DNA from: a virus
DNA length: 27,843 nucleotides
Direction: 5' to 3' (one strand)
Virus record (IMG/VR): IMGVR_UViG_3300010158_000265
Location: 1-27,843 of that record
A model generated the notes under the pieces. The model was not told where the DNA came from. It did not search any database and was given only the letters and a program-made list of their open reading frames with translations. This document shows, one piece after another, positions 4,424 through 27,361 of this stretch (position 1 is the first letter of the stretch; every line of letters begins with the position of its first letter). The position numbers were made by a program, and so were the translations under genes.

Positions 4424-5092
4424 TTAAATTCCATTAGTAAGGCTTTGAATTCTCACAGTATAATCAATTTGTATCATTCGATTTAATGATTTTTGCACAG
4501 GATGAAAAATAACATGAGTCAATAAAGGTCCCATATTTTGTCCATTTACACTATATCCGCGCAATCCTAATTCATCAAACACAAAATCCCCATCTTGATT
4601 AACACTAGAATCAAATGCAGCTTGACCGTTCGGTTCACCAAAATCTAATAAACAACTAACAAGAACATCCGAATAGTAAGTTCCGGCTATATGACGCACT
4701 TCCATAAAATTTCTATCAGGATCAACATCATAAACGCTTTGTCCATTGACTGATTTGTAATATTTTTGATTATACAAAGCTGCATTTGTTCCGGAAACAT
4801 TAGGAGTTAAGTAGGTAATAATACCAGTTGGATCAACTCTACTTCCGCCGTTGCCAAATACCATTTCTGCAATAAATCCATTGCCTGTGTTAGCAATGCT
4901 ATTTGCCAAAGCCATGCTAAAATTTTCATAATGAATAGCATTAGATTTGTCTATAAAAACTTCTTTAGTTTGAGGATCAAAAATTTTAATGTGACCTCTG
5001 ATGCTTATAGCACCTTTTTCATTAGGTTTAATGTAAGGTTGCGTAGTATTCTGCATATTTTTTCTCATTTCTTTATTCTTAGAGTTGTCCAT
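4424..5092 (-). CDS. Virion structural protein of unknown role (222 aa)
   Basis: I do not recognise a named family. The protein is compact, acidic to neutral and without membrane segments. It contains GAISIRGHIKIFDPQTKEV, a helix-like ENFSMALANSIANTGNGF and EMVFGNGG near residues 70-80; a similar layout (short beta segment, helix, then a GNGGT-like turn) occurs in small phage tail and fibre proteins. It sits between the giant baseplate gene and the fibre genes, so a connector or rim protein is a reasonable guess. The first ATG (5092) overlaps the giant gene's stop by 14 bases. ATGs at codon 9 (5068) and codon 13 are alternatives; conserved-looking sequence begins only after codon 13, so the true start may be downstream. 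Confidence 0.7.
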   Translation of the reverse strand: MDNSKNKEMRKNMQNTTQPYIKPNEKGAISIRGHIKIFDPQTKEVFIDKSNAIHYENFSMALANSIANTGNGFIAEMVFGNGGSRVDPTGIITYLTPNVSGTNAALYNQKYYKSVNGQSVYDVDPDRNFMEVRHIAGTYYSDVLVSCLLDFGEPNGQAAFDSSVNQDGDFVFDELGLRGYSVNGQNMGPLLTHVIFHPVQKSLNRMIQIDYTVRIQSLTNGI

Positions 5093-8000
5093 AGTGATAT
5101 TTATCCGGTAAGGCAGACTGCTTATCTCTCAAGAAACTAGCTTGAACACTAGAGTCTGCCAGTAAGGAAACGGAATCGTTATACCAATCAACTGCTGTTT
5201 TTTGTATTACAACGATGCGTGTTCCTGTATTAATATTAATTATGCTTGAATTTAAATGAAGAATATTTGTTTCACCAGATAATTCAATAGTAAATTCAGG
5301 ATCTAATTCAATATCACTGCTGATTCCAGAAGCATTAGTTTCACCGCTATCGAATGCAATCGAAGGATCATGGAGGGTTACTGAGTTAATTGTTGGTTTT
5401 CTTAGTAAGATTCCCCCGTAATATACTTCAACTTGGTCAGTAGCTGTAGTTAATGAATTAAATTTTATTCCTGGTAAAATATAATTAGATACTCCTCCTG
5501 TTGTAGAAGTAGTATAGGTAATAATATTCTCTTTAAAAGGAACTGTTTGACTAGATCCTTGATCAACTATTAAAGTTCCGACAGGATAAAAATCTTTTGC
5601 ACCGGTTCCTAACGTACCTCTTTTTATTCTGCTCAATGTATTATTTGATAATTCCATGTATTCAATTCTTTCTCCTGCAATTAATATAATTCCTGGTATA
5701 TTTTTTGAAGGATAAGGAACAGGCAATACGCTATCGTTTTCTACATATATTTCTGTTGATGTAGTATATAAAGGAGCAGCTAATCGAGTTGAGTTAACAT
5801 AGCTTAATCTTTTATAATGCGTGCGATTTAATATATCTTTAAATATTCTATAACCAATTACTGCAGAATCGTTAACATCAGTCATACTAACAATTACAAC
5901 CATATCCAACTCATTGAAAGGATAACCGTCGTCGATTACAATTGTTTTACCATCGGTATCAATATAATAATCAAAACTGTTAATTAACGTATTTCCACCA
6001 ATGGACACCCAGACATAGTCATCATTGACAAGCGGTCGATCCATTGTGTATCTTCTAGAACCTCTTGCTTTAAATACTTCTGTTCGAATTAAAGAACCAT
6101 CATGATTTGAATATGTGATTACTTTTATCATATCTCCAGAACTCAATGCAATCCGAGGTATATAAATTCTACCGTTAGATATATAATAGTCACTGTATAC
6201 AATATTAGTTATTGCCATCACATCATTAGTTTTTAAGAATCCATTTTTAAATTTAATTTGTTGGTTAGGCTGATCTAAAATAAAATCAACACCGTTTCTA
6301 ATTTTAATTCCATTGATATGCACTTCGAGAGATGCAAGATCAAAGACTCCAGAAGGGTATTCATTATTAGGATCAATATCAAATATTATTTGTCCATTAC
6401 TAACTGAATAATAAACAGTATTAGGAGGAACTAATCTTTTCTTATTAAGCTCAACAACTGCGTTAGCATGAGCAGGCCCAATATTTCCAGGAAACTGATC
6501 TAAAATAAAAGAATTAGAAAATCCGTTTGGATAAATTCTTTGTTCTTTTACTTCACTAAATCCTTTATATGTTGCTCCAAAAAACCATGCCTGAAGTGTG
6601 TTGGTCCCTGAAGTAAGACCAGTAACAGTAACACGCCCTCTCTTATTTTTAGAACTGATAGTAGATAGAGTGTATTCAGAAGTTGTTAAACTTTTTCCAT
6701 TTAAACTAACATATGCACTGCCGATATCATCGTATAATGCTTCTGCGTCAATTGTAATTTTATTTGTATTAGATACTGTAGAATAATCAGAAGAAATATA
6801 ATCAATACCTCCAATACCAACTACAGTTACACCTATTAATCCATTTACAGTTTGCGTAGACACTGTGAGTGTCTTGTTAGAAAAATCTACATTATAGTCT
6901 GATCCATAATTTAAAATTTTATTATTAAATGACACCATCAATGTTCCTGTATTAGGAGGAAGCATAGATAACTGAACTACTGTAGATAATGTTGTAGATG
7001 TTACTTCTTGCATAATTTGAGACATAACAGGAGAACCTCTTTCTGCTCGAGTATATACACTAATACCAACACTTTCTAATACTTGTCCAGGTAACAATTC
7101 TTCAGGAGCATGGCTTACATTAGGAGAAACAAATGCATCTCCATCTAAAATAATATCAGAAGGATTTATACCAGTTGCATTTACTAATGCGTTAGTCAAT
7201 GTGCTCCAAGCACCTCCGTCAATTATTGTGTCAAGATCAGCGTCACTTGAATTATCACCCCAAGACGATTCAGCAAATGGTAAGGTATCCCAGTTGGCTG
7301 AATAAGAAAATGGTAATGTTTGTAGCTGAACACCCGGATAGCTAATTCCGGTCATCAATTGACCATTTTCTTTGCCAGGCATCCCGCTTGTTGGATTATA
7401 AAAATCTGCAATCCTGTCTATTGCATTATATAGATTTATATTTTTAGAATATGTGACAGATAATACTTGTCCAATTAACGGAGCATATGTTAGAACAATT
7501 TTAGAATAAGTTTTATGATATCCGTTGAATAATTCTTTGTAAGTAACTACTTGATAATCTGATGATAGAACTGTAATTCCATCTAATTTGATATCAATTA
7601 AACTTTTTTTGTTTTGAGCGGCCCAAGACAATTTAAATTCAAATTCATTACCATCACACACAAAACTATCAGAGTATTGGGTAGATCCAATTTCTCGATT
7701 AGTAGAAATTCTATCAAATTTAATACCAATTGTATTAGATCTAATTTTTTCGTTAATTAAAACTGCGTATGCCTTTGCAGGAATTAGATCCGTTGGACCT
7801 CCTCCAGAAATAACAACAGTAGGATTTAATGTATAACCACTTCCGGGATTAGTAATTTCAATTTCAATTACTTTGCCTAAAGAAATGTATGCAATTGCAG
7901 TGGCTCCAGATCCCAAATCTCCTTGAGCGGTAATAATTTGAACACTAGGAACCGATGTATAACCTTTTCCACTATTAGTTAATGTTATTTTTCCTACTTT

Positions 8001-11000
8001 AAGTTTATAATTATCATACCAACCTTTTCTAGGATAAACATTCATTAACGTATCATCTAAACTAACAGGAGTAAATTTATGCGTATCTTGATCGTATGTT
8101 GGCGCTAGATCAAAATCAGTTGTATACGAGTGCGTAGGGTCAATAATATCATAATTAACTTGAAAGTTTCTAATTTTTGTATGATAAGGTTTAACTTCAT
8201 TAATATATTCTTCATAGTATTGACTATTTTGAAATTTATAAACAGGCCGTTGATCCAGTAAACCTGCCATATTTTTAACATTAATAAAAGAAGTTTTAAA
8301 TGCCCAATCTAAGAACTTTTGTTCGCTCATTGCATATCTAACTGCTTTAAAGAAAAATTTATTCCAATATATCTTTAACGGACCTACAAAAATATCATTT
8401 TTTATAGAATATAATATTTTTGCTAATTCAATCTCGGGTGATTGATCAAATAAAGATTGATCATATGTTAACTGATAGTCAAAATTATAAGAAGAATTAA
8501 CTTTATTCCACAATATATCTTTTAATTTAATTGTGCCTTTTTCACTATATAATAGATCATAATTATTATCAAAAGTTCCGTTACCTTTAACTTTCTTTAA
8601 AATAATATATTTGCCATTGCCTTGATTATTAACTTTAACATAATCACCAACAATAAGATTTAAAGAATCTAACAAATATGGTTGATCAATAGTTGCAGAC
8701 AAAGGTTTTAAACTATCATAACTGCTAGAAATCCAATCAATATAATCCCAATATAAAGTAGTATTATATTGTTGTGTATAGACAAGCGTCCATGTTTTAT
8801 TAACATATTGATATTTTGACCATACATTATTAATAGTAGAATCTGCTCGAACTACTACAGTATAAGGTCTTACTATTAACGTTGGTGCATCTATCAAACC
8901 AAATCCGGGATTTATAATTTCAGCAGAAATAATCTGTCCAAAATCGTTAATTGTAGTTTTAATAGAGCTACCAGATGTATCTCCAATTATTTCTACAGCA
9001 GGTGCAATATTATAACCGGAACCGGGATTATCTATAGAAACTGATATTATTTTTCCGTTTGATATAGAACAAGATAATGCAGCAGTTTTTGTGCCTCCGA
9101 CAAATACTAAATGTAAATTTTCAATGTCATCGACAATTTTATCGTATTGCCCTAATTCAGGAAAAGGAATTTCATCTTTAGAATTTAAATTTGTAAAATT
9201 AACAAAATTAGAAATTATATTTTGAGATAACACAGTATTAGTATATTCAAATAAATTTCTCAGTGCGCCTGTTCTGTCCTTAAACAATGTTTGGCGTGGA
9301 CGAACTTCTACACCGTATCTAGTTCTTTCAGGTAAATTTGCATCAGGTACGGGATTTCCAACACTGTCTTTTCCTAACAAGCTGTCTAATAATTTTTTAT
9401 CAAGTAAACTGTTAGGCATGCTAGAAGCAGAATTTTCTTCTAATAATAACCATTCGGTATGCCTATTAATATCATTATCAATATCATCTTTAGAAATATT
9501 GAGATATATTCTACTAGCAGTTAACGAATCTTTTACATTAGTAACTGATATTGCATTAGGTGCTAATATAGATACAAACTTGGTTCCATATACGTTAGGA
9601 TTAAAAATTAAACCAGCTACATCGCTTGCTGAAGTTTTTCTTCCATTAACATCCGGAACAATAACTTTATTCTTAACCCAGAAATAATATACATTTGTAG
9701 ATGCACCTGTATTAGAATTATAATATTGTTTAACACTAACAACTGAATTGTCAGGATATTTAGGTTGTCCGCTAATACCTTGCATTAGACCAGCAGGAGT
9801 ATCAGCAATTGCACTCCACTGGCTAGGAAGATATTCGCTGCTAACCCATTCATATACATCAATACTTGCTCCCGGAAATAATGTTCCCCATGTATTTTTT
9901 CTATATTCAATGTCGCTTTGCTCATACCATTGATACTTTACTGTGCTTAGATCCCACCATAATTCTCCCAGGTGTTCTTCTATCCAGCTGGTATTAGTAT
10001 CAACTACTACGCTGTCTACTCCTATACTATAGATTGCAGGGTCAAATGCAGTTTTATATCTAATTTCTTGATCTGCAAGACCTGCAATTCGGCCCTTAAC
10101 CGGATCAATAATATCTAAATAATCAATTACAGTTTCTTCAAAAGTATCAATAGTTGAAGAATTTTTAATTTTAGATATATCAATAAGATCTGGCTGTGTG
10201 CTATGGATAGCCCAACTATTAACTGTTGGATCTATTTTATCAAATAAGAAAACTTTACCGCTAGAACCAGATGCTCCTACAAAAATTTGAGATCCGCTAA
10301 TTACAGAAGATTGCCCATAATTTGAATTGTTTGCAGGATTTTGTGAAGAATCTGCTAATTCTTCTGCATACACAAACATTTCATTGTTTCGATTAAACAC
10401 AAATGAACTTCCGGAGTTAGCAATAATGTTAATAAAGTTGCAGGTATTAGAATCAAATGTAGTTTTTTTAGAATCAATTAATATTTTAGAAGCACTGGAA
10501 TTTCCTTGTGCAGTTACAACTAAAACTTTAGACGTGCTATCAATTGACATTGAAATCCCAAATTGCATATCTGTTCTAGGATTGTTTATTATTTGTATAG
10601 GACTAGTAGTAAACTGAGTTCCGGTATTCTTATACACAAAAACTTTACCGGGTGCGTTAACTGTTGTGCTTGCTACTGTAGACGCAACAAATAGATATAA
10701 ACCATCATCGGACATTAAAACAGAAGATCCAAATTGATCTCCAACTTTACAAATACTTGGAGCAGAAATAGTTTGAACACCCGGCCCAACGCCTGGATTA
10801 TTTAAAATATATACTGCACCGATATTATTATCAGAAGGAGCAGAAACAGCAACAAAATCTCCATGAGCTGATCCGCTGATTGCATATCCATATTGGTTAC
10901 CAGAAATACCCTGACTATTAGCTCCTAATAATGTAATTGTAGATGTGTCGGCGTTTTCTGACACACTGTAAGTATATACTTTATTCTGACCAGGTGCCCC

Positions 11001-14000
11001 AATTAACATTAATTGATTAGATGCAACAGGATTAATATCTTTGCTAACATAAATGCTCGATCCAAATAATCCATTATTTTGAGGATTAGGATTTTTTAGA
11101 ATATGTAATACTACTTCTTGAGATAATGTAAAATTAATTTTTGATACTTTTACAATTCCTTCATTCAAATAAGCATTTGCACCTACGTAACTTGCGTTAG
11201 GTGCGCCTGCAAATATAGCATCAGTAGCATTGTCATATATTAATGAAGATCCAAAATTAGAAACATTTGTTCCTGTAAAATAATTTGTAGGTGATGTTTT
11301 TGATGCAGGACCATAATTAACTACGGGAATCATTGTTCCATTGTCAAGATTATAAACAAATATTCTTCCAGATCGCGATGTTTGACTAACATACCCCGGA
11401 GACGAAATAATTACTATACTTCCGTCGGACGATGTAGCAATTTTATATCCGTATTGTTGACCTATCTGAGTATCTACTGTAGTTGATATAACTTTGGTAC
11501 TATAATTTTTTAATTTTTTATAAACCTCCCATCTTCCATCAATATTAGTATCTGCCCATATTAGATCATTTTCTTTAAAATTAATCAAATCTTGCAAATT
11601 AGCAATTTCGTCAAAGTTATCTACTCTAACACTTACAAATTTAAATAATAATGCAGATGTATTAGAAACAGATAAAGAAGCCATAGTAGTAGCAGCTTCA
11701 AAACTATTAAGAGAGGTAACACGCTGAACAATATAAACACCATCAGAACTGTTATCAAGTCCAACAATAGATACAATATTGCCAGCTGACAAATTATGAA
11801 ATTTGTCAGTCGTAAATGCAATAACCTTAGTAGGAATAGATATAGAAGAACCTATCACCTTAGCAGGTTGTTTAGTATATCGATATACATCCCATTCGCC
11901 GTCGTCTCTAAATCCTAACCAAACTGTATTTCCCTCTTTTATATTACCATTATTTGCAATATCTAATATGCTGTTATTATTATAAGCAGTTGCAGTAACA
12001 TCATCTGCTTTTACATATCCCGCAACTGGCAAAATTATTCCGTCAGTTGAACTAGTTGTTAAAAACACACTGTTAGACAAATAGTCAGCATTTTTAATAG
12101 TAACTTCAGTTGGATTAATATAAGATATAGTATCGTTTGGATTTGTAGGAGAAGTGTCTACAAATTTTATTAATTGAGAATTTTCTCTAAAATCATTTTC
12201 TTTTAATGGAAATTCAATTTGATTATAAGATGTGAAGTTTCCGTATGATCCTATTCTAAATGCCCACTCTTCGTTAAAATCTATTTGCCCTTTAAGATTA
12301 TGAATACTTGCTTTAGCTAGTTTATCAATAGCATTTCTAGTTCCTTTTTCTTTGATAAATCCTTGATAAAATTTATATTGTGCAATAGGATTAACAAAAA
12401 TATTGTTAAGATAATTTCTAGGTGTATAACCAATAAGATGCTGTGCCATCTTTTGTTGGCCGGCATCAAAATTATCAATGTCTAAACTATAAAAATCTTC
12501 AAATTGATTAATTTTATAATCAAAATTAGGAAGTAACTGTGCAACAGGTTTTGTTCCTAATACTGTCCATTTAGCAAAATCAAATGATGCAGTTCCTACA
12601 ATATTTTGATTAGCCGAGTAATATTTTCCGACATATTTTACAATTTCTGCAATTTTATAATCAGTATAAGACTGCCATATTGAAATTTGTGCGTCATCGT
12701 AAATAAACCCAGGACTTAAAAAATCACCATTCCAGTTAGCTGTTTTAAAACCTATTAATCTAATTCTACTTTGACGATACCCGGTATCAATATCATAGAT
12801 TGTATCATTGAATATACTTTTATTATTAAGAATAATAACATGTTCTTTTTGAACAAGATTTAATCTTGCATAAAATAATCCTTCGGTAGTATTTCTAGTG
12901 CTGATTGAACAAGTCCCATTTTCTCTACTGAGGAAAAATTTATCCTTAGGAAAAGATTGTCCAGTTGCAGTTAATAAACTATATTCATAAAAGCTATTCA
13001 ATACATTATCAACAGCTGAATCAATAAATTTATATTTTAAAGAATTAGAAAATGGACTTAATGCAATTACAGATTTATCTGCCCAATTTTGTGTTGTCCA
13101 ATATAAAAACTCTTTTCCTGTAAAAGACCAATTTAGAATTTGTGCTAGTTCTTTATTATATTCATCAAAAATGAATCCCTGATTTTCTAACCATTTACCG
13201 TAACCAACTATAAAATCATACACTTCTTGAACTGTGCTGTATTTTGTTCCATAAGGAACCATTATATCAACACTGTCAAATTCTTTAGTAGTTAATATTG
13301 AAACACCACCAACTGTTGGTATTTTAGATAATATTGAATAATTTGCAGAAATAAATGCAGATCCGGTATTATGACTTTTTAAAACTCTATAATACGAATT
13401 GTCATAAGACACAATCTGTCCAGACTGATAAAAAGAATTTGCATTCCAAGTTAAGAAAGGCTCTGATTTTCCTCCAACAATGATTAAAGAATCAGTTGAT
13501 CGATGAATTGGTGAATTAATAAAAAAATACGGAACTCTTTTGTCGTAACCTTTAACTACATATTTTCCATTATTTTTTTCTACAATAATACCAGATATTG
13601 CAGCAGATTTTATAGGTGCGCTTACATTGAAATGTAATGTATAATCCTCTACAGGCAACAATACTCCAGGATTTGGACTAGCAGGATCAATGGAATCAAT
13701 TATAACAGATAATTTATCTTTGCTTAAAAACCCTCCGGCTTTGTAGCATAAATTAAAACTTATCAATGATAAATCATTTTTAAGAGTTTGAATATAATCA
13801 GTTCTACGTTGTTTACCGTGCTCAACTACCCACACACTATATCCTGATGTAGACAACAAATTACCCGAACTGTCAACATCGTTGGGTATTACAACACTGG
13901 CAGGATTTAACAACTTATGATCAGAATTAGAATTATAAATGTATTGACCAGTTTTATCTTTGATTAATCTGCTAGTATCAAACATTTTTGCTGCATAATC

Positions 14001-17000
14001 GGCAGGTTTTGTTAATGCTAAAATAATTTGAACAGCAAACGGCCACTGACTACTGCGTCTCCACGAGGTTTCTGCTGGGCCGTGATCACCAAACGACCAT
14101 TCTTGATCTGTATCAATGATTGAATCATTTTTTGCAAGAGACGCCCAATTTCTAATATCAATAATGCCACCGTGTTCGTCCACAGGAATAATATTAGACA
14201 GGCCAGGCCGAGCATAAGTTTTATTAATACCCATTCTTGAACCTTGTCTAATCATTCCGTTTTCAAGATCTTTCCATAGTGTTAAATTACCGGAAGTATA
14301 CGGAGCTGGACCATATTCTGATTCCCACCATGTTGGTTTAACAGAAAATCCTAGCATTTCCCAAGGATGTGTATCAGGTCGATCAGTGTCAAAATAATAT
14401 TTGTAAATTCCTCTCCAATTACCGGGAATGGTTTTATTAAAAATTGTATCTATTGCAGATTTATAATTATATGTTTTGTGATTAGATAATTGATAAGTTA
14501 AGTTTGAAGAATAATCTATACCGTAAACACTTGCCCATTTTAAAAAATCTCCCTGAATAATATTATAAATTTCTTTATAAGAATTATATTGAGATCTAAA
14601 TACTCCAGGAAGTATGTTATTAATATCGATCAAATCTTGATTATATAAAATTTTAAGATTATTATAGACACGAGTTTCGTATTCTAATAATGCAAGATCT
14701 CTAAAATCATCTTTATCATTATAATCAGAATATGCCACTGTTAAACTTCCGTCGTGACCCTGGATGACTTTTACGGGACCATCTACATAGGTATAATCAA
14801 TAAAAATACTAGGAACAAATTTAGGATAAAGACCTAATTTAGTAGGAGTAGGAGGAATATAAGAACCGTCAGTGCAGTTATAATCTTTAATAACAACAAC
14901 ATCGCCCTTAGTAATAGTTGCAAGTATTAAAACACTTGCATCATATTTTTCAAAAATATAATCTTTTTCGTAGGTTAAAAGTGAATTATTTAGATAAACT
15001 AGAACAGATCTATCACTTAAAATACTGTTATCAAAAATAGATGTTATAGAATAATTTTTATTACGACTATCGGTAACAGTGTATGTTCTAGTAATATTAT
15101 TATTACCATAGCCTATCATGTCACTTCTTCCGTAAGGAAAAGAAGAGTTTTTATTTTGTATAATAGATGCTAGTGCAGAATCTAACACATCAGCCGGAGA
15201 CAATTGGCCTCCAACTTGAGAAATAAATTTAATTAAATTTAATTTAAACTGATAATAATCGTTACTAGATTGTCTAATTGAATCTATTAAACTATTTTCT
15301 ACATTGGTAATAAATGAATGCGCAAAAGAAAGAGGATTATTATTTCCAATTAATCTAGATCCATATTTTGTAGAATTTGGTAAACTTTTTAGATTACTAA
15401 CTCCCGGAAATGCTCCAATAAAATTAGGATCTTTGTCAATCATAGATTTTACATGATCAGATAATTCGCTTAATGTTAAAGATGATAATACATCATTAAG
15501 TGGATTATTTGTTAAATTTAATGGAGTTTCATAAGTTCCTAAATCGTTAGGATTTGCCAAAGTATAACACTTAATTAATACCCTTTTAGGAATTACACTA
15601 CCGTCGATGTTATTTTTAAAAGTTACAAATAATTTATTATCAATTTTTTCTAGAGTAAAATCAGTCGATATATTTTGTTTAACATCATCAACGAATACTG
15701 ATACTGTTAGGTCATTAATTGTTGCTGCATTATCAAAAACATTTATTTCAATATTTTTAACATTACTAGAAACTATTTGAAATTGTAATACAGGGATTTG
15801 ATAAGGATCTGCAGGAGTCCATACATTTATGTAAGTAGGAGAACTTTTATTAATTTTTAAATATGCAGTATAAGAAGGAAAAGATGTAACTACATTATTT
15901 CCAATAATGCTGATTGACTCTGTTCCAAAGAAATTATTAAACAAATAAGTTCCTTCTAATCCTATGTCATTATAATATTTTAATGGAAAACCTAAAACAG
16001 GGTCAACAGCACCAGAACCTGTCATATAACCAAAAATTTGATTACCAAAAAATTCAGAGTTATAATATTTGGGATTGCTAAAACTAAATCCATCTTTGTC
16101 AAATAAATCAAACATAGGTGCTTGATTCCTAACTGTGCGTTGTTGAGATACAACCCAAGAATCTCCGTTAAACCACCATCCTTGCCCAGTGTGAGTATCA
16201 CCCATATTGATTACAACACCGTCTCCAACATTAGGAGTCATTATTTCGATTAAATTAATAAATTCTTGCCCATCAATAATGGCAAGAGAAACTTCAAATA
16301 TTTTTCCCTTAACTAACGGATCGGGGTCGGCATTAAAAATTACACGGTGGCCTGCTGCCAATCGAACTCCATCAACATAATATCCAACTGTTTTTTCTAC
16401 TTTAGAAAAAGCGTCAGTTGTTATTGTATCAATTAGGTCAATTGAATCAACTGCTTTTTCACAAAAATTCCAAAGTTGCATATCTGGAATAAATTCAATA
16501 ATTGGTCGAGATGCTCTTTGCGTTTGCAAATATACAGGATTATTATCCCCGTTAGCAATTGCTGTAAATTTAATAACATCACTGTGAAACCAGCGATTAT
16601 ATCTAGACCAAGGATTTAAATCATTACTAGATTTATTAATTGTTACATATTCAGGAACTAATGGAAGATTTTTAAAATTATCAAATGAAAATTCATCAAA
16701 AGGAGTTTCGTCAAAATTGTCATTGTATATAGTACCAATATTGTCAGGTGATGTTAATTTAGAAAATTCAACTAATTTAATACCTTCTCCGACTCCTTCA
16801 ACAATAAAATCTTTATCAGCATATTCTGCAGGAGTTACTTCGCCGGCAAATCTAACTTTAAGACCGTTGATAAATTCTATTCCGTTGCCAGATCGATATT
16901 GCACTTTATTAAGAATTTGATTTTCTACATCAATAACAGAATTTTCTAATAGTTTTTTTACTAAAAGACGACCACCTACTACATGATTATCATCAGTACC

Positions 17001-17750
17001 GTAGTATAAAACGCTAGGAGTTGTGTCGTCGACAGTAAAAATTATTTGACCCAACGAGGTGCCATTGCCAATAATTCCGTGATTATACTGACCTGCTGCA
17101 TCAGCCGTATCAGATGTTTTAAAATAAAATTTATGGACAGAAGTTACATTGAATACATAGGTAACTCCTCTAAAGAAAGTCAATAGAGGATCTTCAGTTA
17201 ATCCATCAGGAGTAAAGATAAAGAAGTTTCCATCTGCTGAATCGGTTACTGTATAGGTGCTAACTTCGCCAGTTTTAATGGTATTTTTTTGAGTTCCGGA
17301 TATAAAAACATAATCAGGACCATTTGGTAGCCAATAATATTCTCTAAAATTAATAAATTTATCCCAGTCAATTCTAGGATTATAAGAACTAAAATTAGGT
17401 CTAAATAATTGATCTAAGTTTTTATTATTTCCGCCGTAAACACCAATTTGATTCACTAAATCATCAAATCCAAATGCTTTTTTAATGCTGCCGTCAAGCT
17501 CTTTTACAATTAAACCTGGCTCAAGCTGATATTTTTGTCTTAGTGGCAACGATTCAGAAATATATACATCCGATGCATAATTAAAATTTTTGCTTAATTT
17601 GCTTCCTACAAACCCGTCTATGCGTTCTAGTTCAGGAGTTTTGGTTAATTGATCTAATGTGCTAGATAAAAACTTTTGATTTTTATCTGTTCTAAAAAAT
17701 GTAGGTAATAGATTAATTGATTGCTTATCGATATTTTTATTATTAGCCAT
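5079..17750 (-). CDS. Giant baseplate/virion protein at the gp7 position (4223 aa)
   Basis: This single open frame of 12.7 kb encodes a protein of roughly 460 kDa. It follows gp6, where T4 has gp7. Visible order: a conserved N-terminus (INLLPTFFRTDKNQKFL, WDKFINFREYYWLPNGPDY); a cupredoxin-like domain at 172-266; a Trp/Pro-rich block at about 1120-1240 (DRPDTHPWEMLGF, WRRSSQWPFA); a segment at 1794-1814 (FYQGFIKEKGTRNAIDKL) resembling the FYSTKGIEASYKFLFK part of T4 gp7; an FG-GAP propeller at 2095-2507; the block LWWDLSTVKYQWYEQSDI near 2590; NPGSGY repeats between about 2900 and 3320; a block with VKPYHTKIRNF near 3175; then many beta-sandwich-like segments and IKRGTLGTGAKDF near 4035. I infer a baseplate wedge/periphery component, perhaps replacing gp7 and other wedge proteins. 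Start support is good: AAGGAA about 10 bases upstream overlaps the gp6 stop. No frameshift or intein was seen. Confidence 0.85.
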   Translation of the reverse strand: MANNKNIDKQSINLLPTFFRTDKNQKFLSSTLDQLTKTPELERIDGFVGSKLSKNFNYASDVYISESLPLRQKYQLEPGLIVKELDGSIKKAFGFDDLVNQIGVYGGNNKNLDQLFRPNFSSYNPRIDWDKFINFREYYWLPNGPDYVFISGTQKNTIKTGEVSTYTVTDSADGNFFIFTPDGLTEDPLLTFFRGVTYVFNVTSVHKFYFKTSDTADAAGQYNHGIIGNGTSLGQIIFTVDDTTPSVLYYGTDDNHVVGGRLLVKKLLENSVIDVENQILNKVQYRSGNGIEFINGLKVRFAGEVTPAEYADKDFIVEGVGEGIKLVEFSKLTSPDNIGTIYNDNFDETPFDEFSFDNFKNLPLVPEYVTINKSSNDLNPWSRYNRWFHSDVIKFTAIANGDNNPVYLQTQRASRPIIEFIPDMQLWNFCEKAVDSIDLIDTITTDAFSKVEKTVGYYVDGVRLAAGHRVIFNADPDPLVKGKIFEVSLAIIDGQEFINLIEIMTPNVGDGVVINMGDTHTGQGWWFNGDSWVVSQQRTVRNQAPMFDLFDKDGFSFSNPKYYNSEFFGNQIFGYMTGSGAVDPVLGFPLKYYNDIGLEGTYLFNNFFGTESISIIGNNVVTSFPSYTAYLKINKSSPTYINVWTPADPYQIPVLQFQIVSSNVKNIEINVFDNAATINDLTVSVFVDDVKQNISTDFTLEKIDNKLFVTFKNNIDGSVIPKRVLIKCYTLANPNDLGTYETPLNLTNNPLNDVLSSLTLSELSDHVKSMIDKDPNFIGAFPGVSNLKSLPNSTKYGSRLIGNNNPLSFAHSFITNVENSLIDSIRQSSNDYYQFKLNLIKFISQVGGQLSPADVLDSALASIIQNKNSSFPYGRSDMIGYGNNNITRTYTVTDSRNKNYSITSIFDNSILSDRSVLVYLNNSLLTYEKDYIFEKYDASVLILATITKGDVVVIKDYNCTDGSYIPPTPTKLGLYPKFVPSIFIDYTYVDGPVKVIQGHDGSLTVAYSDYNDKDDFRDLALLEYETRVYNNLKILYNQDLIDINNILPGVFRSQYNSYKEIYNIIQGDFLKWASVYGIDYSSNLTYQLSNHKTYNYKSAIDTIFNKTIPGNWRGIYKYYFDTDRPDTHPWEMLGFSVKPTWWESEYGPAPYTSGNLTLWKDLENGMIRQGSRMGINKTYARPGLSNIIPVDEHGGIIDIRNWASLAKNDSIIDTDQEWSFGDHGPAETSWRRSSQWPFAVQIILALTKPADYAAKMFDTSRLIKDKTGQYIYNSNSDHKLLNPASVVIPNDVDSSGNLLSTSGYSVWVVEHGKQRRTDYIQTLKNDLSLISFNLCYKAGGFLSKDKLSVIIDSIDPASPNPGVLLPVEDYTLHFNVSAPIKSAAISGIIVEKNNGKYVVKGYDKRVPYFFINSPIHRSTDSLIIVGGKSEPFLTWNANSFYQSGQIVSYDNSYYRVLKSHNTGSAFISANYSILSKIPTVGGVSILTTKEFDSVDIMVPYGTKYSTVQEVYDFIVGYGKWLENQGFIFDEYNKELAQILNWSFTGKEFLYWTTQNWADKSVIALSPFSNSLKYKFIDSAVDNVLNSFYEYSLLTATGQSFPKDKFFLSRENGTCSISTRNTTEGLFYARLNLVQKEHVIILNNKSIFNDTIYDIDTGYRQSRIRLIGFKTANWNGDFLSPGFIYDDAQISIWQSYTDYKIAEIVKYVGKYYSANQNIVGTASFDFAKWTVLGTKPVAQLLPNFDYKINQFEDFYSLDIDNFDAGQQKMAQHLIGYTPRNYLNNIFVNPIAQYKFYQGFIKEKGTRNAIDKLAKASIHNLKGQIDFNEEWAFRIGSYGNFTSYNQIEFPLKENDFRENSQLIKFVDTSPTNPNDTISYINPTEVTIKNADYLSNSVFLTTSSTDGIILPVAGYVKADDVTATAYNNNSILDIANNGNIKEGNTVWLGFRDDGEWDVYRYTKQPAKVIGSSISIPTKVIAFTTDKFHNLSAGNIVSIVGLDNSSDGVYIVQRVTSLNSFEAATTMASLSVSNTSALLFKFVSVRVDNFDEIANLQDLINFKENDLIWADTNIDGRWEVYKKLKNYSTKVISTTVDTQIGQQYGYKIATSSDGSIVIISSPGYVSQTSRSGRIFVYNLDNGTMIPVVNYGPASKTSPTNYFTGTNVSNFGSSLIYDNATDAIFAGAPNASYVGANAYLNEGIVKVSKINFTLSQEVVLHILKNPNPQNNGLFGSSIYVSKDINPVASNQLMLIGAPGQNKVYTYSVSENADTSTITLLGANSQGISGNQYGYAISGSAHGDFVAVSAPSDNNIGAVYILNNPGVGPGVQTISAPSICKVGDQFGSSVLMSDDGLYLFVASTVASTTVNAPGKVFVYKNTGTQFTTSPIQIINNPRTDMQFGISMSIDSTSKVLVVTAQGNSSASKILIDSKKTTFDSNTCNFINIIANSGSSFVFNRNNEMFVYAEELADSSQNPANNSNYGQSSVISGSQIFVGASGSSGKVFLFDKIDPTVNSWAIHSTQPDLIDISKIKNSSTIDTFEETVIDYLDIIDPVKGRIAGLADQEIRYKTAFDPAIYSIGVDSVVVDTNTSWIEEHLGELWWDLSTVKYQWYEQSDIEYRKNTWGTLFPGASIDVYEWVSSEYLPSQWSAIADTPAGLMQGISGQPKYPDNSVVSVKQYYNSNTGASTNVYYFWVKNKVIVPDVNGRKTSASDVAGLIFNPNVYGTKFVSILAPNAISVTNVKDSLTASRIYLNISKDDIDNDINRHTEWLLLEENSASSMPNSLLDKKLLDSLLGKDSVGNPVPDANLPERTRYGVEVRPRQTLFKDRTGALRNLFEYTNTVLSQNIISNFVNFTNLNSKDEIPFPELGQYDKIVDDIENLHLVFVGGTKTAALSCSISNGKIISVSIDNPGSGYNIAPAVEIIGDTSGSSIKTTINDFGQIISAEIINPGFGLIDAPTLIVRPYTVVVRADSTINNVWSKYQYVNKTWTLVYTQQYNTTLYWDYIDWISSSYDSLKPLSATIDQPYLLDSLNLIVGDYVKVNNQGNGKYIILKKVKGNGTFDNNYDLLYSEKGTIKLKDILWNKVNSSYNFDYQLTYDQSLFDQSPEIELAKILYSIKNDIFVGPLKIYWNKFFFKAVRYAMSEQKFLDWAFKTSFINVKNMAGLLDQRPVYKFQNSQYYEEYINEVKPYHTKIRNFQVNYDIIDPTHSYTTDFDLAPTYDQDTHKFTPVSLDDTLMNVYPRKGWYDNYKLKVGKITLTNSGKGYTSVPSVQIITAQGDLGSGATAIAYISLGKVIEIEITNPGSGYTLNPTVVISGGGPTDLIPAKAYAVLINEKIRSNTIGIKFDRISTNREIGSTQYSDSFVCDGNEFEFKLSWAAQNKKSLIDIKLDGITVLSSDYQVVTYKELFNGYHKTYSKIVLTYAPLIGQVLSVTYSKNINLYNAIDRIADFYNPTSGMPGKENGQLMTGISYPGVQLQTLPFSYSANWDTLPFAESSWGDNSSDADLDTIIDGGAWSTLTNALVNATGINPSDIILDGDAFVSPNVSHAPEELLPGQVLESVGISVYTRAERGSPVMSQIMQEVTSTTLSTVVQLSMLPPNTGTLMVSFNNKILNYGSDYNVDFSNKTLTVSTQTVNGLIGVTVVGIGGIDYISSDYSTVSNTNKITIDAEALYDDIGSAYVSLNGKSLTTSEYTLSTISSKNKRGRVTVTGLTSGTNTLQAWFFGATYKGFSEVKEQRIYPNGFSNSFILDQFPGNIGPAHANAVVELNKKRLVPPNTVYYSVSNGQIIFDIDPNNEYPSGVFDLASLEVHINGIKIRNGVDFILDQPNQQIKFKNGFLKTNDVMAITNIVYSDYYISNGRIYIPRIALSSGDMIKVITYSNHDGSLIRTEVFKARGSRRYTMDRPLVNDDYVWVSIGGNTLINSFDYYIDTDGKTIVIDDGYPFNELDMVVIVSMTDVNDSAVIGYRIFKDILNRTHYKRLSYVNSTRLAAPLYTTSTEIYVENDSVLPVPYPSKNIPGIILIAGERIEYMELSNNTLSRIKRGTLGTGAKDFYPVGTLIVDQGSSQTVPFKENIITYTTSTTGGVSNYILPGIKFNSLTTATDQVEVYYGGILLRKPTINSVTLHDPSIAFDSGETNASGISSDIELDPEFTIELSGETNILHLNSSIININTGTRIVVIQKTAVDWYNDSVSLLADSSVQASFLRDKQSALPDKYHYGQL
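5098..5105 (-). promoter_or_regulatory. Possible late promoter before the 222-aa gene
   Basis: The minus strand reads GATAAATA, again NATAAATA-like, ending 5 bases before the first ATG of the 222-residue gene and lying inside the end of the giant gene. If it is real, the transcript would begin near that ATG and translation would probably use the ATG at codon 9 or 13 instead. The single motif is weak evidence. Confidence 0.2.
5950..7020 (-). other. C-terminal run of beta-sandwich-like repeats in the giant protein
   Basis: Residues of about 3575-3930 of the giant protein form a series of similar units, each with a short beta strand, a hydrophobic xVxxNGK/xVxxNGI turn and a closing 'YxxD' segment (for example VSFNNKILNYGSDYNVDF, VSLNGKSLTTSEYTL, VHINGIKIRNGVDFIL, VSIGGNTLINSFDYYID). 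At least four such units are visible. The pattern suggests stacked small beta domains that could form an arm or project from the baseplate. The unit boundaries are read by eye. Confidence 0.5.
7800..9050 (-). repeat. Four degenerate NPGSGY-type protein repeats in the giant protein
   Basis: Four copies of a short unit of the form I-x-I-x-N-P-G-x-G-Y-x-x-x-P-x-V-x-I can be read: VSIDNPGSGYNIAPAVEI, AEIINPGFGLIDAPTLIV, ITLTNSGKGYTSVPSVQI and IEITNPGSGYTLNPTVVI. They come in two pairs (about 8985-9050 with 8870-8935, and 7930-7995 with 7800-7868) separated by some 870 bases of unrelated sequence. Each pair is linked by a Gly/Ala/Ser-rich hairpin. This looks like a small beta module used twice. 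The function is unknown. Confidence 0.6.
10230..11468 (-). other. FG-GAP type seven-blade beta-propeller inside the giant protein
   Basis: Residues 2095-2507 contain seven successive units of about 45-65 residues, each with a Y/F-G motif, a strand ending in a hydrophobic run plus SAP/GAP/SSP-like turn, and a closing V-x-V-Y/F strand. Examples are QYGYKIATSSDGSIVIISSP, FGSSLIYDNATDAIFAGAP, QYGYAISGSAHGDFVAVSAP, QFGSSVLMSDDGLYLFVAS and YGQSSVISGSQIFVGAS. The pattern and number of units match the FG-GAP repeats of integrin-alpha-type propellers. The calcium-binding DxDxDG loops typical of some FG-GAP blades are not obvious. In a baseplate protein such a domain would most likely mediate protein or surface-sugar binding; that role is inference. 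Confidence 0.75.
16953..17237 (-). other. Cupredoxin-like domain lacking copper ligands, inside the giant protein
   Basis: Residues 172-266 read like the plastocyanin/cupredoxin-like module often seen in marine phage structural proteins: LLTFFRGVTYVFNV, then VHKFYFKT, YNHGIIGNGTSLGQIIFTV and LYYGTDDNHVVGGRLLV. Copper-binding members have a first His, then a Cys-x-x-His-x-x-Met loop near the end. Here a first His (206) and a late His (256) remain, but the Cys is absent (YY-GTDDNH) and the Met position is Val. The fold is probably kept as a structural or binding domain without a copper site. Confidence 0.55.
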
Positions 17751-21236: not shown

Positions 21237-21674
21237 TTATTGCGTAATAAGACCTAACTTTTTATCAAATGACATTTTCATATTTGCTGTTTGATCAGTA
21301 CCAATATATTGTAGTGTAATTTCAAGTAACATACCATATTGTTGTTCGTTGATATTAATTTGAATAGGAACTGCTCTAGGATCGCTATTACATATCCTAC
21401 TAATATCATCGCTTAATGCTTGTTTAACATCATCAGTAAATGGTTCAAAAATTAAATCCCAAATTATAGTTCCAAAAGACGGATTCATTACTCTTTCACC
21501 CTTTCGAGTGTTAAACTGATTAATAATATCCTGTTTAATAATATCAAAATCATAAAGTCGAGTGTTTACTGAATTTGGGTCTACAGAACTGTATCCAATA
21601 TAAAATTGACTCTTTTTTGCAGTGTGCTGAGAACTATACTGACTAGGATTAATTTCAATATTTTTGTATGCCAT
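21237..21674 (-). CDS. gp25: Baseplate wedge protein gp25 (145 aa)
   Basis: This is a full-length gp25/IraD-like protein. The diagnostic motif is TRKGERVMNPSFGTIIWDLI FEPF-type sequence at about residues 56-78, followed by an acidic helix (DDVKQALSDDISRIC) and a C-terminal strand region (LLEITLQYIGT). gp25 joins the wedge to the tail sheath and is among the most conserved parts of contractile machines (GPW_gp25 family). Its length is close to T4 gp25 (132 residues). It sits between the spike gene and gp6, an order shared by many T4-like phages. The upstream stop is 8 bases away and no good ribosome site is visible, so translation probably depends on coupling to the gp5-like gene. Confidence 0.95.
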   Translation of the reverse strand: MAYKNIEINPSQYSSQHTAKKSQFYIGYSSVDPNSVNTRLYDFDIIKQDIINQFNTRKGERVMNPSFGTIIWDLIFEPFTDDVKQALSDDISRICNSDPRAVPIQININEQQYGMLLEITLQYIGTDQTANMKMSFDKKLGLITQ

Positions 21675-21682
21675 GATATTAT

Positions 21683-23860
21683 TTATTGTCCAGTTTTAAC
21701 AGGATTTCCGTAGCTGTCTGTAAGCACGGAATTAGATCCAGTACCTACTGTTCCCTGTGGAATAACTCCACTTGTTTGAAACTTTGTTTTATATTCGGCA
21801 TAATATTGCTGACGTTTTGCTAGACCGTTAGTTCCGCCATTGACTATTTTAGTAACTGCTAAACAATCATTCCAATCTACACTTGCAGTTCTGCTCTTCT
21901 TATATTCATTAAAGAAAAATACAACTGATTTTGCTGCCCATTCAATAGATTCAATTAATTCAGGTTGTGCTTCAAAATCAATTCCTGCATTAAAGAATTT
22001 AGTCATCTTTTTATAAACATCTCGACCTGTTAATTGAATAAATCCACGACCTTTGTATCGAACTCCGTCACCTGTTTGTGTATTTCCTAAATCTTTTCGA
22101 CCTTCGTATTCAGCGCCACTAGCATATTCTCTTAGTGCCCTAAACCCATCGCTTTCAACTTTACATTGCGCCATCCACGCAGCCAATTTAATAGGATCGT
22201 TAACTCCTGCATTTACTAAAATACTTTGCAAATAAGTTTCATTTGCACCGGCATTTTTACTTGCCGGAATTGCTACCGGTGTGGCATTTACTGGTGTAGC
22301 TCCTGGCTCGGCAGTAGGGCTAGATGGGCCGTCTGTCCTAGGAGTAACTTGAACATCAGTATTAGCCGATGTAAATTTTGTCGGATTAGTATTTTCGTGG
22401 TGATCCCAAGGTTCGTGAGTAGGGACACGTTGCATAATACTATTAATATTTCCCGATTTATAAAATTGTCCGTTTGCCCATCCGGAGTCATCTGAACGAT
22501 TAGGCAAGCTAAAAATATCTAATTTATCGGGCACATCGGCCGTTGCTGCTGCTGCTGCCGGTGCGGCTGCCGGACCATTCATATGTATTTGCGTAGCAGT
22601 TTCTAAAATATTTCCAGAAGCACCAATATTCATATTAGCACCTGCACTTAATTTCATTGCATCGCTACTGGAAATATTCATAGTAGCACCTGCACTTAAT
22701 TTCATTGCATCCCCGCTGGCAAGATTAACAATTGCCCCTGCCTGAAATTTAATATCACTATTTGCCAATAAATTAGCGTTTCCTCCAAATACTAGTTTTC
22801 CATCTTTATCACAAATAACATTAAATCTGTTAACACAGTTCATTTCAATGCCGCTAAATGCATTCATATTGATGTTTCGGCCCGCTTCAATATTAACATC
22901 TCGATCTGCACGAAAATTAAAATCATTTTCTGTATGAATGCTAACACTGTCTTTAGCATAGATATCTATTTTACCATTTGAAGTAAGCTCAATCCATGCA
23001 TTTCCTTTACTGTTTGCAATGTAAATTAGATCACTAGAATTGTGCATGAGAATTTGATGTCCTGTTCTAGTGCGAATGCGAACTAGTTCGTTCTGTCCAT
23101 TTTCGTCACCGTCATCCATTACAAATGATGTTCCACCTAATCGACTTACCGGAATAGCGTTGCCTCGATTAGCATCGTATCCCATAGTTCTTTTGTTTGA
23201 TGAATTTGTATCATATGGCCCAGGCGTGCTAATACCAAATACTTTGCTTGGAGCTTCTCTGCGTGCAGAACTAGAGGTGACTCCTCGAATATCGTCTAAC
23301 AATAATCCTTGAGCTAGTAATCTATCTGCAAAAGGATGAACTGGTTTTTTTTGACTTGCCGGATCTAATAAAGTTTTTGAGCTTCTTTTATGGAATTCTG
23401 CAACTGGTAATCTTTTGGTGCCATATTTTAATTCTTCTTCCGGTGTTAGATAAACATCAGAACCGTCGGTGCTTGCTGCAATACCAGGAACCATATAATT
23501 TTGAAATTCATGAGGGATACATCCTAACCAATAACCTTGATTAGGATCACCGTCAATGAATATTACTAAAACTTTTGTTCCAATATCGGGCGGCACCATC
23601 CAAAAACCATAACTTTTTTGAACATCGTCATATTTTCTAGGATCAGTTCCCTCGAACTGAGGATTCATTGCCCCATAGAAAGGACTGAGATATTTTACAG
23701 GATATACTTGTGAGTCAGAAAAAGCATTACCAATAGGTGCACCTTTTTCAATAACAACTTCACATGATCCCATTCGTGTAGTATCTTTTAGATTAGTAAT
23801 CCGAGCCACGTAAGGTCCTGGACTAGGTAATCTGCCAATTAGTCTTGTTTCTATTCCCAT
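21683..23860 (-). CDS. gp5: Baseplate central spike gp5-like with C-terminal GH19-type lysozyme (725 aa)
   Basis: The protein forms the axial spike and digests peptidoglycan during infection. Residues 8-130 form the gp5 OB-fold domain (RLPSPGPYVARITNLKDTT; FWMVPPDIGTKVLVIFIDGD; QGYWLGCIPHEF). Residues about 248-427 are a repetitive VgrG-type beta-helix (GKIDIYAKDSVSIHTENDF; DVNIEAGRNINMN), with two 16-residue near-identical repeats. A Pro/Ala linker (428-445) and a Thr/Pro-rich stretch lead to an enzyme domain at about 537-690 with GH19 chitinase/endolysin hallmarks: QCKVESDGF, EYEGRKDLGN, GDGVRYKGRGFIQLTGRDVY. E569 and E586 are the likely catalytic pair. In T4 gp5 a different lysozyme sits between the OB fold and the helix, so the layout here differs. 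The gap to the hub gene is 2 bases and no strong ribosome site is visible. Confidence 0.93.
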   Translation of the reverse strand: MGIETRLIGRLPSPGPYVARITNLKDTTRMGSCEVVIEKGAPIGNAFSDSQVYPVKYLSPFYGAMNPQFEGTDPRKYDDVQKSYGFWMVPPDIGTKVLVIFIDGDPNQGYWLGCIPHEFQNYMVPGIAASTDGSDVYLTPEEELKYGTKRLPVAEFHKRSSKTLLDPASQKKPVHPFADRLLAQGLLLDDIRGVTSSSARREAPSKVFGISTPGPYDTNSSNKRTMGYDANRGNAIPVSRLGGTSFVMDDGDENGQNELVRIRTRTGHQILMHNSSDLIYIANSKGNAWIELTSNGKIDIYAKDSVSIHTENDFNFRADRDVNIEAGRNINMNAFSGIEMNCVNRFNVICDKDGKLVFGGNANLLANSDIKFQAGAIVNLASGDAMKLSAGATMNISSSDAMKLSAGANMNIGASGNILETATQIHMNGPAAAPAAAAATADVPDKLDIFSLPNRSDDSGWANGQFYKSGNINSIMQRVPTHEPWDHHENTNPTKFTSANTDVQVTPRTDGPSSPTAEPGATPVNATPVAIPASKNAGANETYLQSILVNAGVNDPIKLAAWMAQCKVESDGFRALREYASGAEYEGRKDLGNTQTGDGVRYKGRGFIQLTGRDVYKKMTKFFNAGIDFEAQPELIESIEWAAKSVVFFFNEYKKSRTASVDWNDCLAVTKIVNGGTNGLAKRQQYYAEYKTKFQTSGVIPQGTVGTGSNSVLTDSYGNPVKTGQ
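21790..22250 (-). other. GH19-like lysozyme domain of the spike protein
   Basis: Residues of about 537-690 carry a lysin of the GH19 chitinase/lysozyme type. The first presumed catalytic Glu (E569) is in KVESDGF and the second (E586) in EYEGR, followed by the substrate-cleft signature YKGRGFIQLTGR. The helix AAKSVVFFF and KIVNGGTNG are also family-like. Cleavage of the cell-wall glycan is expected, judged by homology only. Confidence 0.8.
22541..22578 (-). repeat. Ala-coding trinucleotide run in the spike linker
   Basis: A run of GCN codons, including four or five consecutive GCA, encodes GPAAAPAAAAATADVP at about residues 428-445. It links the beta-helix to the rest of the C-terminal half. 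A trinucleotide run can change length by slippage without shifting the frame. Confidence 0.7.
22636..22711 (-). repeat. 48-base tandem duplication in the spike beta-helix
   Basis: A 28-base sequence (22636-22663) recurs exactly at 22684-22711, with similar flanks, giving a 48-base period or 16 residues. The encoded units are DAMKLSAGATMNIS and DAMKLSAGANMNIG. This is consistent with duplication of two beta-helix rungs and with spike-length change by slippage or unequal exchange. Confidence 0.85.
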
Positions 23861-27058: not shown

Positions 27059-27361
27059 TTAGAATCCTAACGAGTTTTTTAATGTAGACAATTTTGGCAA
27101 ATAGATTATCTGCCCTGCAAACATATCGTATATAGGATCTTTAATTAAATCTTTGTTTCTAACAGAAAATACCCACCATAAATTGCTATCTCCATATAGA
27201 TCGTATGCTAGTAAATCTGGTCTAAATTCATATTGACTAGTTAAAGTATATTGAACATCATCTGTTTGATTAGGTATATTCCTAAGATTAACAATATCTA
27301 GATAGGAACCCGTTATTTGTGTAGAATAATAAGGACTTAATTTTGAATATATAGATGACAT
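27059..27361 (-). CDS. gp53: Baseplate wedge protein gp53-like, short form (100 aa)
   Basis: Visible motifs are YEFRPDLLAYDLYGDSNLWW, VFSVRNKDLIKDPIYDMFAG and QIIYLPKLSTL. These fit the gp53 / LysM-like wedge protein of T4-like phages, where a D-x-Y-G-D-x-x-x-W-W segment precedes an 'I-x-D-P-x-x-D...G-x-x-I-x-x-P' end. T4 gp53 has 196 residues, so this is about half, close to the short versions I recall from marine phages. The start is fixed by the TAATG overlap with the upstream gene's stop, and AAAGG lies about 10 bases upstream. It probably attaches gp25 and gp6 of neighbouring wedges. Confidence 0.85.
   Translation of the reverse strand: MSSIYSKLSPYYSTQITGSYLDIVNLRNIPNQTDDVQYTLTSQYEFRPDLLAYDLYGDSNLWWVFSVRNKDLIKDPIYDMFAGQIIYLPKLSTLKNSLGF

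Follow-up and report, generated by a model that had tools for sequence, protein, structure and literature searches.

Where does an enzyme come to lie on a phage central spike when it is encoded behind the beta-helix instead of in front of it? The question is raised by a gp5-like protein encoded in IMG/VR virus record IMGVR_UViG_3300010158_000265, of which the whole analysed stretch of 27,843 nucleotides is here called the window. A preliminary description had read this protein as OB fold, beta-helix, Ala/Pro linker and GH19-type enzyme, and had placed the enzyme at or beyond the spike tip, or else folded back. The domain order is borne out by matches in Pfam, PHROG and the PDB and by structural models (Table 1), and it contrasts with that of T4 gp5, for which a Pfam control returned the OB fold at residues 33-173, the lysozyme at 183-310 and the best beta-helix repeat at 484-506. 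We consider it likely that the protein serves a contractile-tailed phage, a distant relative of PA5oct, RaK2 and other jumbo phages, as its central spike, that its chain folds back and docks a conserved end segment on the head, leaving the enzyme near the hub, and that the slot behind this segment is a cassette site whose enzymes were repeatedly exchanged, gained and lost.

Linker length and the course of the chain

Related spikes were collected by eight IMG/VR scans, each contributing at most 80 loci (the number of matching stretches was 450 to 600 or more in several of them), and from ten named phage records. The resulting sample of 641 loci, some of them on the same contig, comprised 629 spike proteins whose 3' end is complete, 370 of them unique and 276 remaining at 90% identity. 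The 238 representatives with the strict end motif were counted and the 38 without it left out. Measured from W289 to N428, the beta-helix takes lengths of about 107, 123, 139, 155 and 171 residues, and the linker, measured from N428 to P453, has 19, 22, 25, 28 and 31 residues, respectively. Within one residue of this line, hereafter the ruler, lie 103 of 110 measured representatives (Pearson r 0.785; highest of 10,000 permutations, 0.339), and the neighbouring segment from P453 to E483 does not scale with the beta-helix in the same 110 (r -0.18). When the anchors were widened, 123 of 143 representatives came within 1.5 residues. Counted as independent pairs across well-supported branches of the core tree, the larger set gave 8.0 pairs in the same direction, 0 opposite and 2.0 undecided of 10 (median p 0.008), and a second pair count 7.2, 0 and 2.9 of 10 (p 0.016); in the set of 110 about six of six pairs agreed (median p 0.03), and the second count gave 4.8 same, 0 opposite and 1.2 undecided of 6 (p 0.06). 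By class of the part behind the end segment (the cargo, described below), the 143 representatives fit the ruler in 12/12 GH19a, 54/54 GH19b, 18/18 SLT and 26/30 cargo-free spikes. The window and its nearest relative by core (L020) differ by exactly one 16-residue unit and three linker residues. This extra unit is encoded by a 48-nt repeat, and lengthening of the spike apparently proceeds by duplication of such units.

Three extended residues span 9-10 Å. The 16 residues of one beta-helix unit would measure 8.6 Å, because an excerpt of the T4 literature gives 187 residues over 100 Å (PMC4576200). The two lengths are close, and the composition of the linker (30% Ala, 20% Pro) suits an extended path. 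Extrapolated to zero, the ruler would bring the end of the linker level with about residue 295.

The preliminary description had the linker right and overlooked what lies between it and the GH19 domain: a conserved segment, about residues 445-500, that contains RVPTHEPWDHHEN, and then a second linker. Residues I475, R478, P480, H482, E483, P484, H488 and E489 are invariant in 39 aligned spikes, and the strict end motif occurs in 157 of 194 representatives, a relaxed version in 174. Five positions are invariant in an alignment of 84 spikes; four of them (E483, P484, H488, E489) are so by selection, because the rows were picked by the strict motif, and R478 is the only independent one. A model of the core made with 84 diverse cores reached a predicted local distance difference test score (pLDDT) of 88.2 and a predicted template modelling score of 0.80, with pLDDT values of 89-95 at residues 441-500 and 61-63 at residues 421-440. 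An end segment that is ordered in a monomer model would be expected to rest against its own chain, in keeping with docking on the head. Among the top 200 couplings, the partners of the end segment are 35 positions in the head, 6 in the helix and 3 in the linker, and include the pairs 285-455 and 295-498.

Since the linker scales with the beta-helix, the chain would run back beside it and dock on the head, and such docking would probably leave the enzyme near the hub, as in T4. Three chains would build the OB head and the beta-helix; at the tip each would reverse and return alongside the beta-helix, with its Ala/Pro linker extended and of a length that the beta-helix would set; and the end segment would dock on a face of the head, from where the second linker would carry the predicted GH19 hydrolase, with peptidoglycan as its presumed substrate. 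The enzyme, T4-like in space and not in sequence, would follow the puncturing tip into the periplasm and open the wall for the tube. From the sequences we infer the fold-back strongly, if short of proof. Of the two placements in the preliminary description, that at or beyond the tip is probably mistaken, and the folded-back one is favoured by the ruler, by the confidence values that the model gives for the end segment and, weakly, by the couplings.

A number of observations weigh against this interpretation. Both anchors of the ruler are present in only 110 (or 143) of the 238 representatives, and four anchor rules were tried. The first covered 157 of 238 representatives (N428-to-motif Spearman 0.54, Pearson 0.26; with an LPNR anchor, 73 representatives, Spearman 0.69); the second 108 of 321 proteins and 92 representatives (Spearman 0.71, mis-anchored rows spoiling the linear fit); the third 136 of 321 proteins, yielding the 110 representatives; and the fourth and widest 178 of 321, yielding the 143. 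In this widest set Pearson r is 0.18 and Spearman 0.53, the former because 20 of the 143 rows are off the line. The fit is 10/15 for GH104 and 1/11 for the other classes, which are mostly VgrG3-like, and ten of the 20 misfit rows are VgrG3-like spikes whose deviation is unexplained; among four of these inspected by eye, three have a linker of 22 at a helix of 131-139 (predicted 23.5-25) and one a linker of 24. Two more (L240, L241) are offset from the ruler by -7.7, their mutual difference still being +32/+6, and most of those inspected among the remaining eight appear mis-anchored. Deviations in the set of 110 amount to 2 residues for L051, L054 and L061, to 1-2 for L176 and L387, and to 13 for L175 and L178, which were probably mis-anchored. 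As regards docking, which is read from the confidence values of a monomer model, a smaller alignment left the end segment at pLDDT 40-63 from residue 451 on. The couplings are noisy and weak (effective number of sequences 165), a mean-field analysis being noisy as well, with a head share of 71% expected from column count; the strongest one of the end segment, 341-477, goes to the helix and is unexplained, and one hairpin of the OB fold was not recovered.

A linker might also be cut during assembly or infection, leaving the GH19 domain detached or loose, a course compatible with the fold-back and to which we give a low but appreciable probability. T4 gp5 undergoes cleavage, and the second linker is conserved, with P515, T516, N525, P528 and P532 present in 17/17 GH19a spikes. 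This conservation also fits a module inherited together with its linker, and inspection by eye recognised no processing site.

The chain could instead continue past the tip with the GH19 domains foremost, in the manner in which evolved VgrG proteins are usually pictured with their effector. A tip cargo resembling that of the type VI secretion system (T6SS) was in fact our starting alternative. It is a simple reading of the domain order, one cargo class resembles a VgrG effector domain, and the coupling 341-477 points to the helix. There would also be room at the tip, as the Pfam model PAAR (PF05488) matched in just one of 20 related records, which may be fragments, as the window is. We regard this placement as improbable, since the ruler set it back: a free linker at the tip would have no reason to scale by three residues per 16 with the beta-helix, and the end segment is predicted to be ordered within the monomer.

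PAAR-like genes were sought further with a hidden Markov model (HMM) of our own, which found one adjacent to the spike at 10 loci, all with cargo-free spikes. Examples directly past cargo-free spikes of one clade are L103:5084-5383, L144:2705-3004 and L160:5170-5466, of which L144 scored above and L103 below the Pfam cut-off. A mutual exclusion of PAAR and cargo was not retained as a trend, because the six non-redundant loci sit in one clade of the tree and count as a single event.

Exchange of enzymes behind the end segment

Cargo classes were assigned with HMMs built from the loci, M15 by hand. Among the 238 spikes, 76 have no cargo, 64 have GH19b, 31 SLT-type, 26 VgrG3-like, 17 GH104 and 16, the window's included, GH19a (18 with the two that also carry SGNH). 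Rarer are GH19a+SGNH (2), SLT+SGNH (1), GH104+SGNH+GH104 (1), M15 (1) and others (3). With 76 spikes cargo-free, the layout is not universal in the group, as the preliminary description had allowed that it might be. The SLT cargo resembles lytic transglycosylase 9udh (E 2e-31), and the GH104 cargo lysozyme 1am7 (E 7e-26), which the PDB record names simply lysozyme and we take to be that of lambda. The VgrG3-like cargo resembles 4nso ('Effector protein') and 4noo ('VgrG protein', presumably V. cholerae VgrG3), both at E 2e-5. The M15 cargo matches VanY and the SGNH cargo Lipase_GDSL_2, both below the Pfam cut-off.

In a first set of 157 spikes all 107 modules detected by HMM begin past the end motif, and in 116/194 spikes having both anchors the neck is 70-97 residues long without insertion; these surveys of modules and neck length found no relative with an enzyme in the slot used by T4, between OB fold and beta-helix. 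Mapped on a core-only tree, the 11 cargo states of the 238 spikes require 31 changes, with a minimum of 10 and a mean of 137.5 after shuffling; the first set required 25 changes for nine states. The VgrG3-like cargo forms one clade. The nearest relative, L020, has no cargo: DNA similarity to the window stops at 22383 and sets in again with the stop codon (21685), with 697 bp in the window against 52 bp in L020. Of the 46 cargo-free spikes in this first set, 44 are followed downstream by a gp25 match, in 32 cases as the first listed open reading frame (ORF), and six enzyme HMMs (VgrG3-like and M15 not among them) matched no ORF in their flanks.

Identity of core and cargo correlates weakly in GH19a (r 0.30) and clearly in GH19b (0.78), SLT (0.73) and GH104 (0.86). 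Cargo within one class therefore mostly travels with its core, and independent movement within classes was set aside. Recombination through the DNA of the end motif is likewise not claimed. In blastn a 104-bp stretch over the motif is 83.7% identical between the window and L020; for the end segment, 596 random pairs gave a DNA identity of 56.5%, against 59.2% and 57.6% for the segments compared with it.

Spikes with different enzymes also have in common a short tail, TDSxGNPVxTG, the window (21686-21769) included. A GNPV-like motif occurs in 12/15 GH19a, 44/49 GH19b and 11/26 SLT spikes and in 0/14 GH104, 0/46 cargo-free and 0/7 other spikes, with a background of 9/3140 sequence windows. An SGNH/GDSL-like domain stands behind GH19 or transglycosylase cargo in L018:6001-8574, L042:5561-8137 and L213:3501-6101, and the single spike with VanY-like (M15) cargo, below the Pfam cut-off, is L269:3477-5453. 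Between spike and gp25 an extra gene of 405-432 residues is found in L237:5006-6304 and L242:3715-4932, and a Pfam scan of the L237 copy gave no family above cut-off. Two spikes come from cultivated jumbo phages: that of Atu_ph07 (L083, 4905-7502) has a C-terminal endolysin-like part and a trypsin-like domain, and that of Phosso (L084, 2914-6048) a long glycine-rich linker and an end similar by eye.

The GH19 domain and its probable activity

The C-terminal domain is matched by the PHROG endolysin families 9506 (residues 543-692, E 3e-39) and 181 (544-695, E 1e-35) and, by sequence search, by endolysins in the PDB. A model of the whole chain has a mean pLDDT of 68.7, with blocks of 81-95 over residues 541-700. 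About residues 532-697 of the model superpose on GH19 structures: on endolysin 7r6s (model residues 536-708) with Z 20.0 (165 aligned, root-mean-square deviation (rmsd) 2.2), on other endolysins with Z 13.7-18.2 and on chitinases with Z about 11-13, for example chitinase C 2dbt (Z 13.1, 157 aligned, rmsd 3.3). By this model a GH19 fold is well supported, and the enzyme is of another family than that of T4, as had been proposed. The Pfam GH19 model argues against the assignment, the window protein being unlisted at E<=1; relatives reached 16.5, 19.4, 25.2 and 25.3 bits (L004 and L012 just below the cut-off of 25.5), and only the GH19b spike of L021 passed it, with 33.0 bits.

Glu569 and Glu578 are present in all 17 GH19a spikes, the window's among them, a catalytic site of the kind whose absence would have spoken against the preliminary description. 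The assignment of Glu578 as second catalytic residue is our assumption from the nine-residue spacing, which we take to match that of chitinase C. That the domain is an inactive remnant with a binding or structural role is very unlikely, given this conservation and a solved homologue, 'Endolysin A', whose two PDB entries have Glu (9hqw) and Gln (9hnu), respectively, at the Glu569 position. Repeated replacement by other wall hydrolases likewise suggests selection for activity. The missing Pfam match and the departure of two GH19b relatives (L044, L045) from the GRG motif would agree with such a remnant.

The record of L005 holds a spike GH19 domain 72% identical to that of the window and, besides it, a separate GH19 frame of 212 residues; separate frames of 204-231 residues occur in 10 of 20 related records searched. 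The copy on the spike is therefore probably not the lysis enzyme.

Locus and relation to known spikes

The features of the gp5-type central spike found in the window are an N-terminal OB fold, a beta-helix (in the monomer model) and a neighbourhood of baseplate genes. Phage_base_V scored 24.9 bits (cut-off 23.8), and DUF2345 matched residues 298-431 exactly at its cut-off. Model residues 12-427 align to T4 gp5 (1k28) with a middling VIA Z of 7.7 (282 aligned, rmsd 5.2), Foldseek gave E 4.8e-5 for the same entry, and intra-chain strands are absent from the model at residues 302-450. PHROG 13211 (baseplate hub and tail lysozyme) covers residues 16-418, and Pfam and PHROG scans of the neck (130-255) gave no enzyme match. 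An assembly or gene-calling artefact that joined the spike to a neighbouring endolysin gene has next to no probability, because a contig 99.89% identical to the window over 10,210 bp (L001) has the same fusion and the GH19a module recurs among relatives, and gp25 directly follows the spike in the window as it does in 32/46 cargo-free ones.

Table 1. Features of the spike gene and its neighbours, in positions of the window
Feature	Position	Strand	Remark
gp5-like central spike with C-terminal GH19 enzyme	21683..23860	(-)	ORF of 725 aa, ATG start
OB fold, residues 12-116	23513..23827	(-)	Phage_base_V; model aligned to OB folds
Conserved neck, residues 130-255, slot of T4 gp5 lysozyme	23096..23473	(-)	enzyme match: none
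Beta-helix region, residues 256-428	22577..23095	(-)	DUF2345; models; 1k28 alignment
48-nt tandem repeat, one 16-residue beta-helix unit	22636..22741	(-)	not present in L020, the nearest relative
Ala/Pro-rich ruler linker, residues 429-452	22505..22576	(-)	lengthens by 3 for every 16 beta-helix residues
Conserved end segment, residues 453-500	22361..22504	(-)	cargo-free relatives stop shortly past its motif
End motif RVPTHEPWDHHE, residues 478-489	22394..22429	(-)	39 aligned spikes
Second linker, residues 501-532	22265..22360	(-)	conserved among 17 GH19a members
GH19 domain, residues 533-697	21770..22264	(-)	PHROG, PDB and model matches
C-terminal tail ending LTDSYGNPVKTGQ	21686..21769	(-)	similar tails behind other enzyme classes
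gp25-like baseplate wedge protein, next gene downstream	21237..21674	(-)	Pfam
Upstream virion structural protein, 1064 aa	23863..27057	(-)	phrog_11190; putative hub from gene position
Baseplate wedge protein, 1139 aa	17765..21184	(-)	phrog_10646; putatively gp6-like from position
gp53-like baseplate wedge protein	27059..27361	(-)	Pfam and PHROG

After the gp6-like gene an ORF of 4223 residues (5079-17750, (-)) has a CBM_5_12 match just above cut-off, and in Vibrio phage 2.275.O a gene annotated as CBM family 5/12 lies two genes past the spike. A scan of genome contigs for a clue to host or prophage found no relative of the spike.

An enzyme placed after the beta-helix is already known. Excerpts of two published accounts describe RaK2 gp078, with its lysozyme C-terminal to the beta-helix, as having 'a very unusual domain composition' (PMC3622015, 2013) and note the same order for CBB_240 of phage CBB (PMC5259590, 2017); like the window spike, both have OB fold, beta-helix and then a hydrolase, and these excerpts mention neither a ruler nor module exchange. 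RaK2, GAP32 and Munch differ from the window in their enzymes, with a weak M23 match (below cut-off) and GH24 in Pfam instead of GH19, and lack its strict end motif. PA5oct (a Pseudomonas phage) and SCTP-2 (a Salicola phage) have cores 35% and 29% identical and a variant end motif; their spikes, of 477 and 476 residues, stop shortly past it without an enzyme. A myophage needle without any enzyme has also been described, according to an excerpt of PMC11948020. T4 gp5 shares the OB fold and triple beta-helix, with a gp53 gene before and a gp6 gene after it, but has a GH24-type lysozyme between OB fold and beta-helix, where the window spike has none, and the PAAR tip protein gp5.4. The evolved VgrG proteins of T6SS also carry a C-terminal effector; unlike them, the window spike lies among phage baseplate genes and not in a type VI locus, its putative gp27-like part is unfused (a separate upstream gene), and it probably has a fold-back tether. 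The GH19 phage endolysins 9hqw, 9ms7 and 7r6s share sequence, fold and catalytic Glu with the window domain, which sits in a structural spike. Relatives in BFVD include A0A6J5L6V6 (742 residues, 795 columns aligned) and a GH19 protein of 933 residues from cyanophage S-N03 (696 columns). Among the open-licence papers listed in searches on fold-back spikes, spike tips and PAAR, GH19 tail lysozymes, jumbo or freshwater tail lysozymes, modular virion hydrolases, C-terminal extensions, evolved VgrG and VgrG-3-type hydrolases, none was found to describe the ruler or the exchange. The ruler and the exchange of cargo look new, the latter as a swappable enzyme module behind what appears, by comparison of sequences, to be a constant spike end.

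We somewhat favour a more general reading, in which a length-matched ruler and a head clip would form a tether that leaves the tip bare and serves for the swapping of wall-cutting enzymes; these come from at least six families, one of them shared with a VgrG effector of T6SS. If the fold-back is true, domain order alone cannot place the enzyme of a spike, and opposite orders, as in T4 and in the window, may share one geometry; the ruler would then provide, for many uncultivated phages and from sequence alone, a prediction of structure that can be falsified. The VgrG-effector-like cargo links phage spikes by sequence with evolved VgrG proteins, and the exchangeable cargo amounts to a natural catalogue of enzymes able to tolerate being delivered by a spike.

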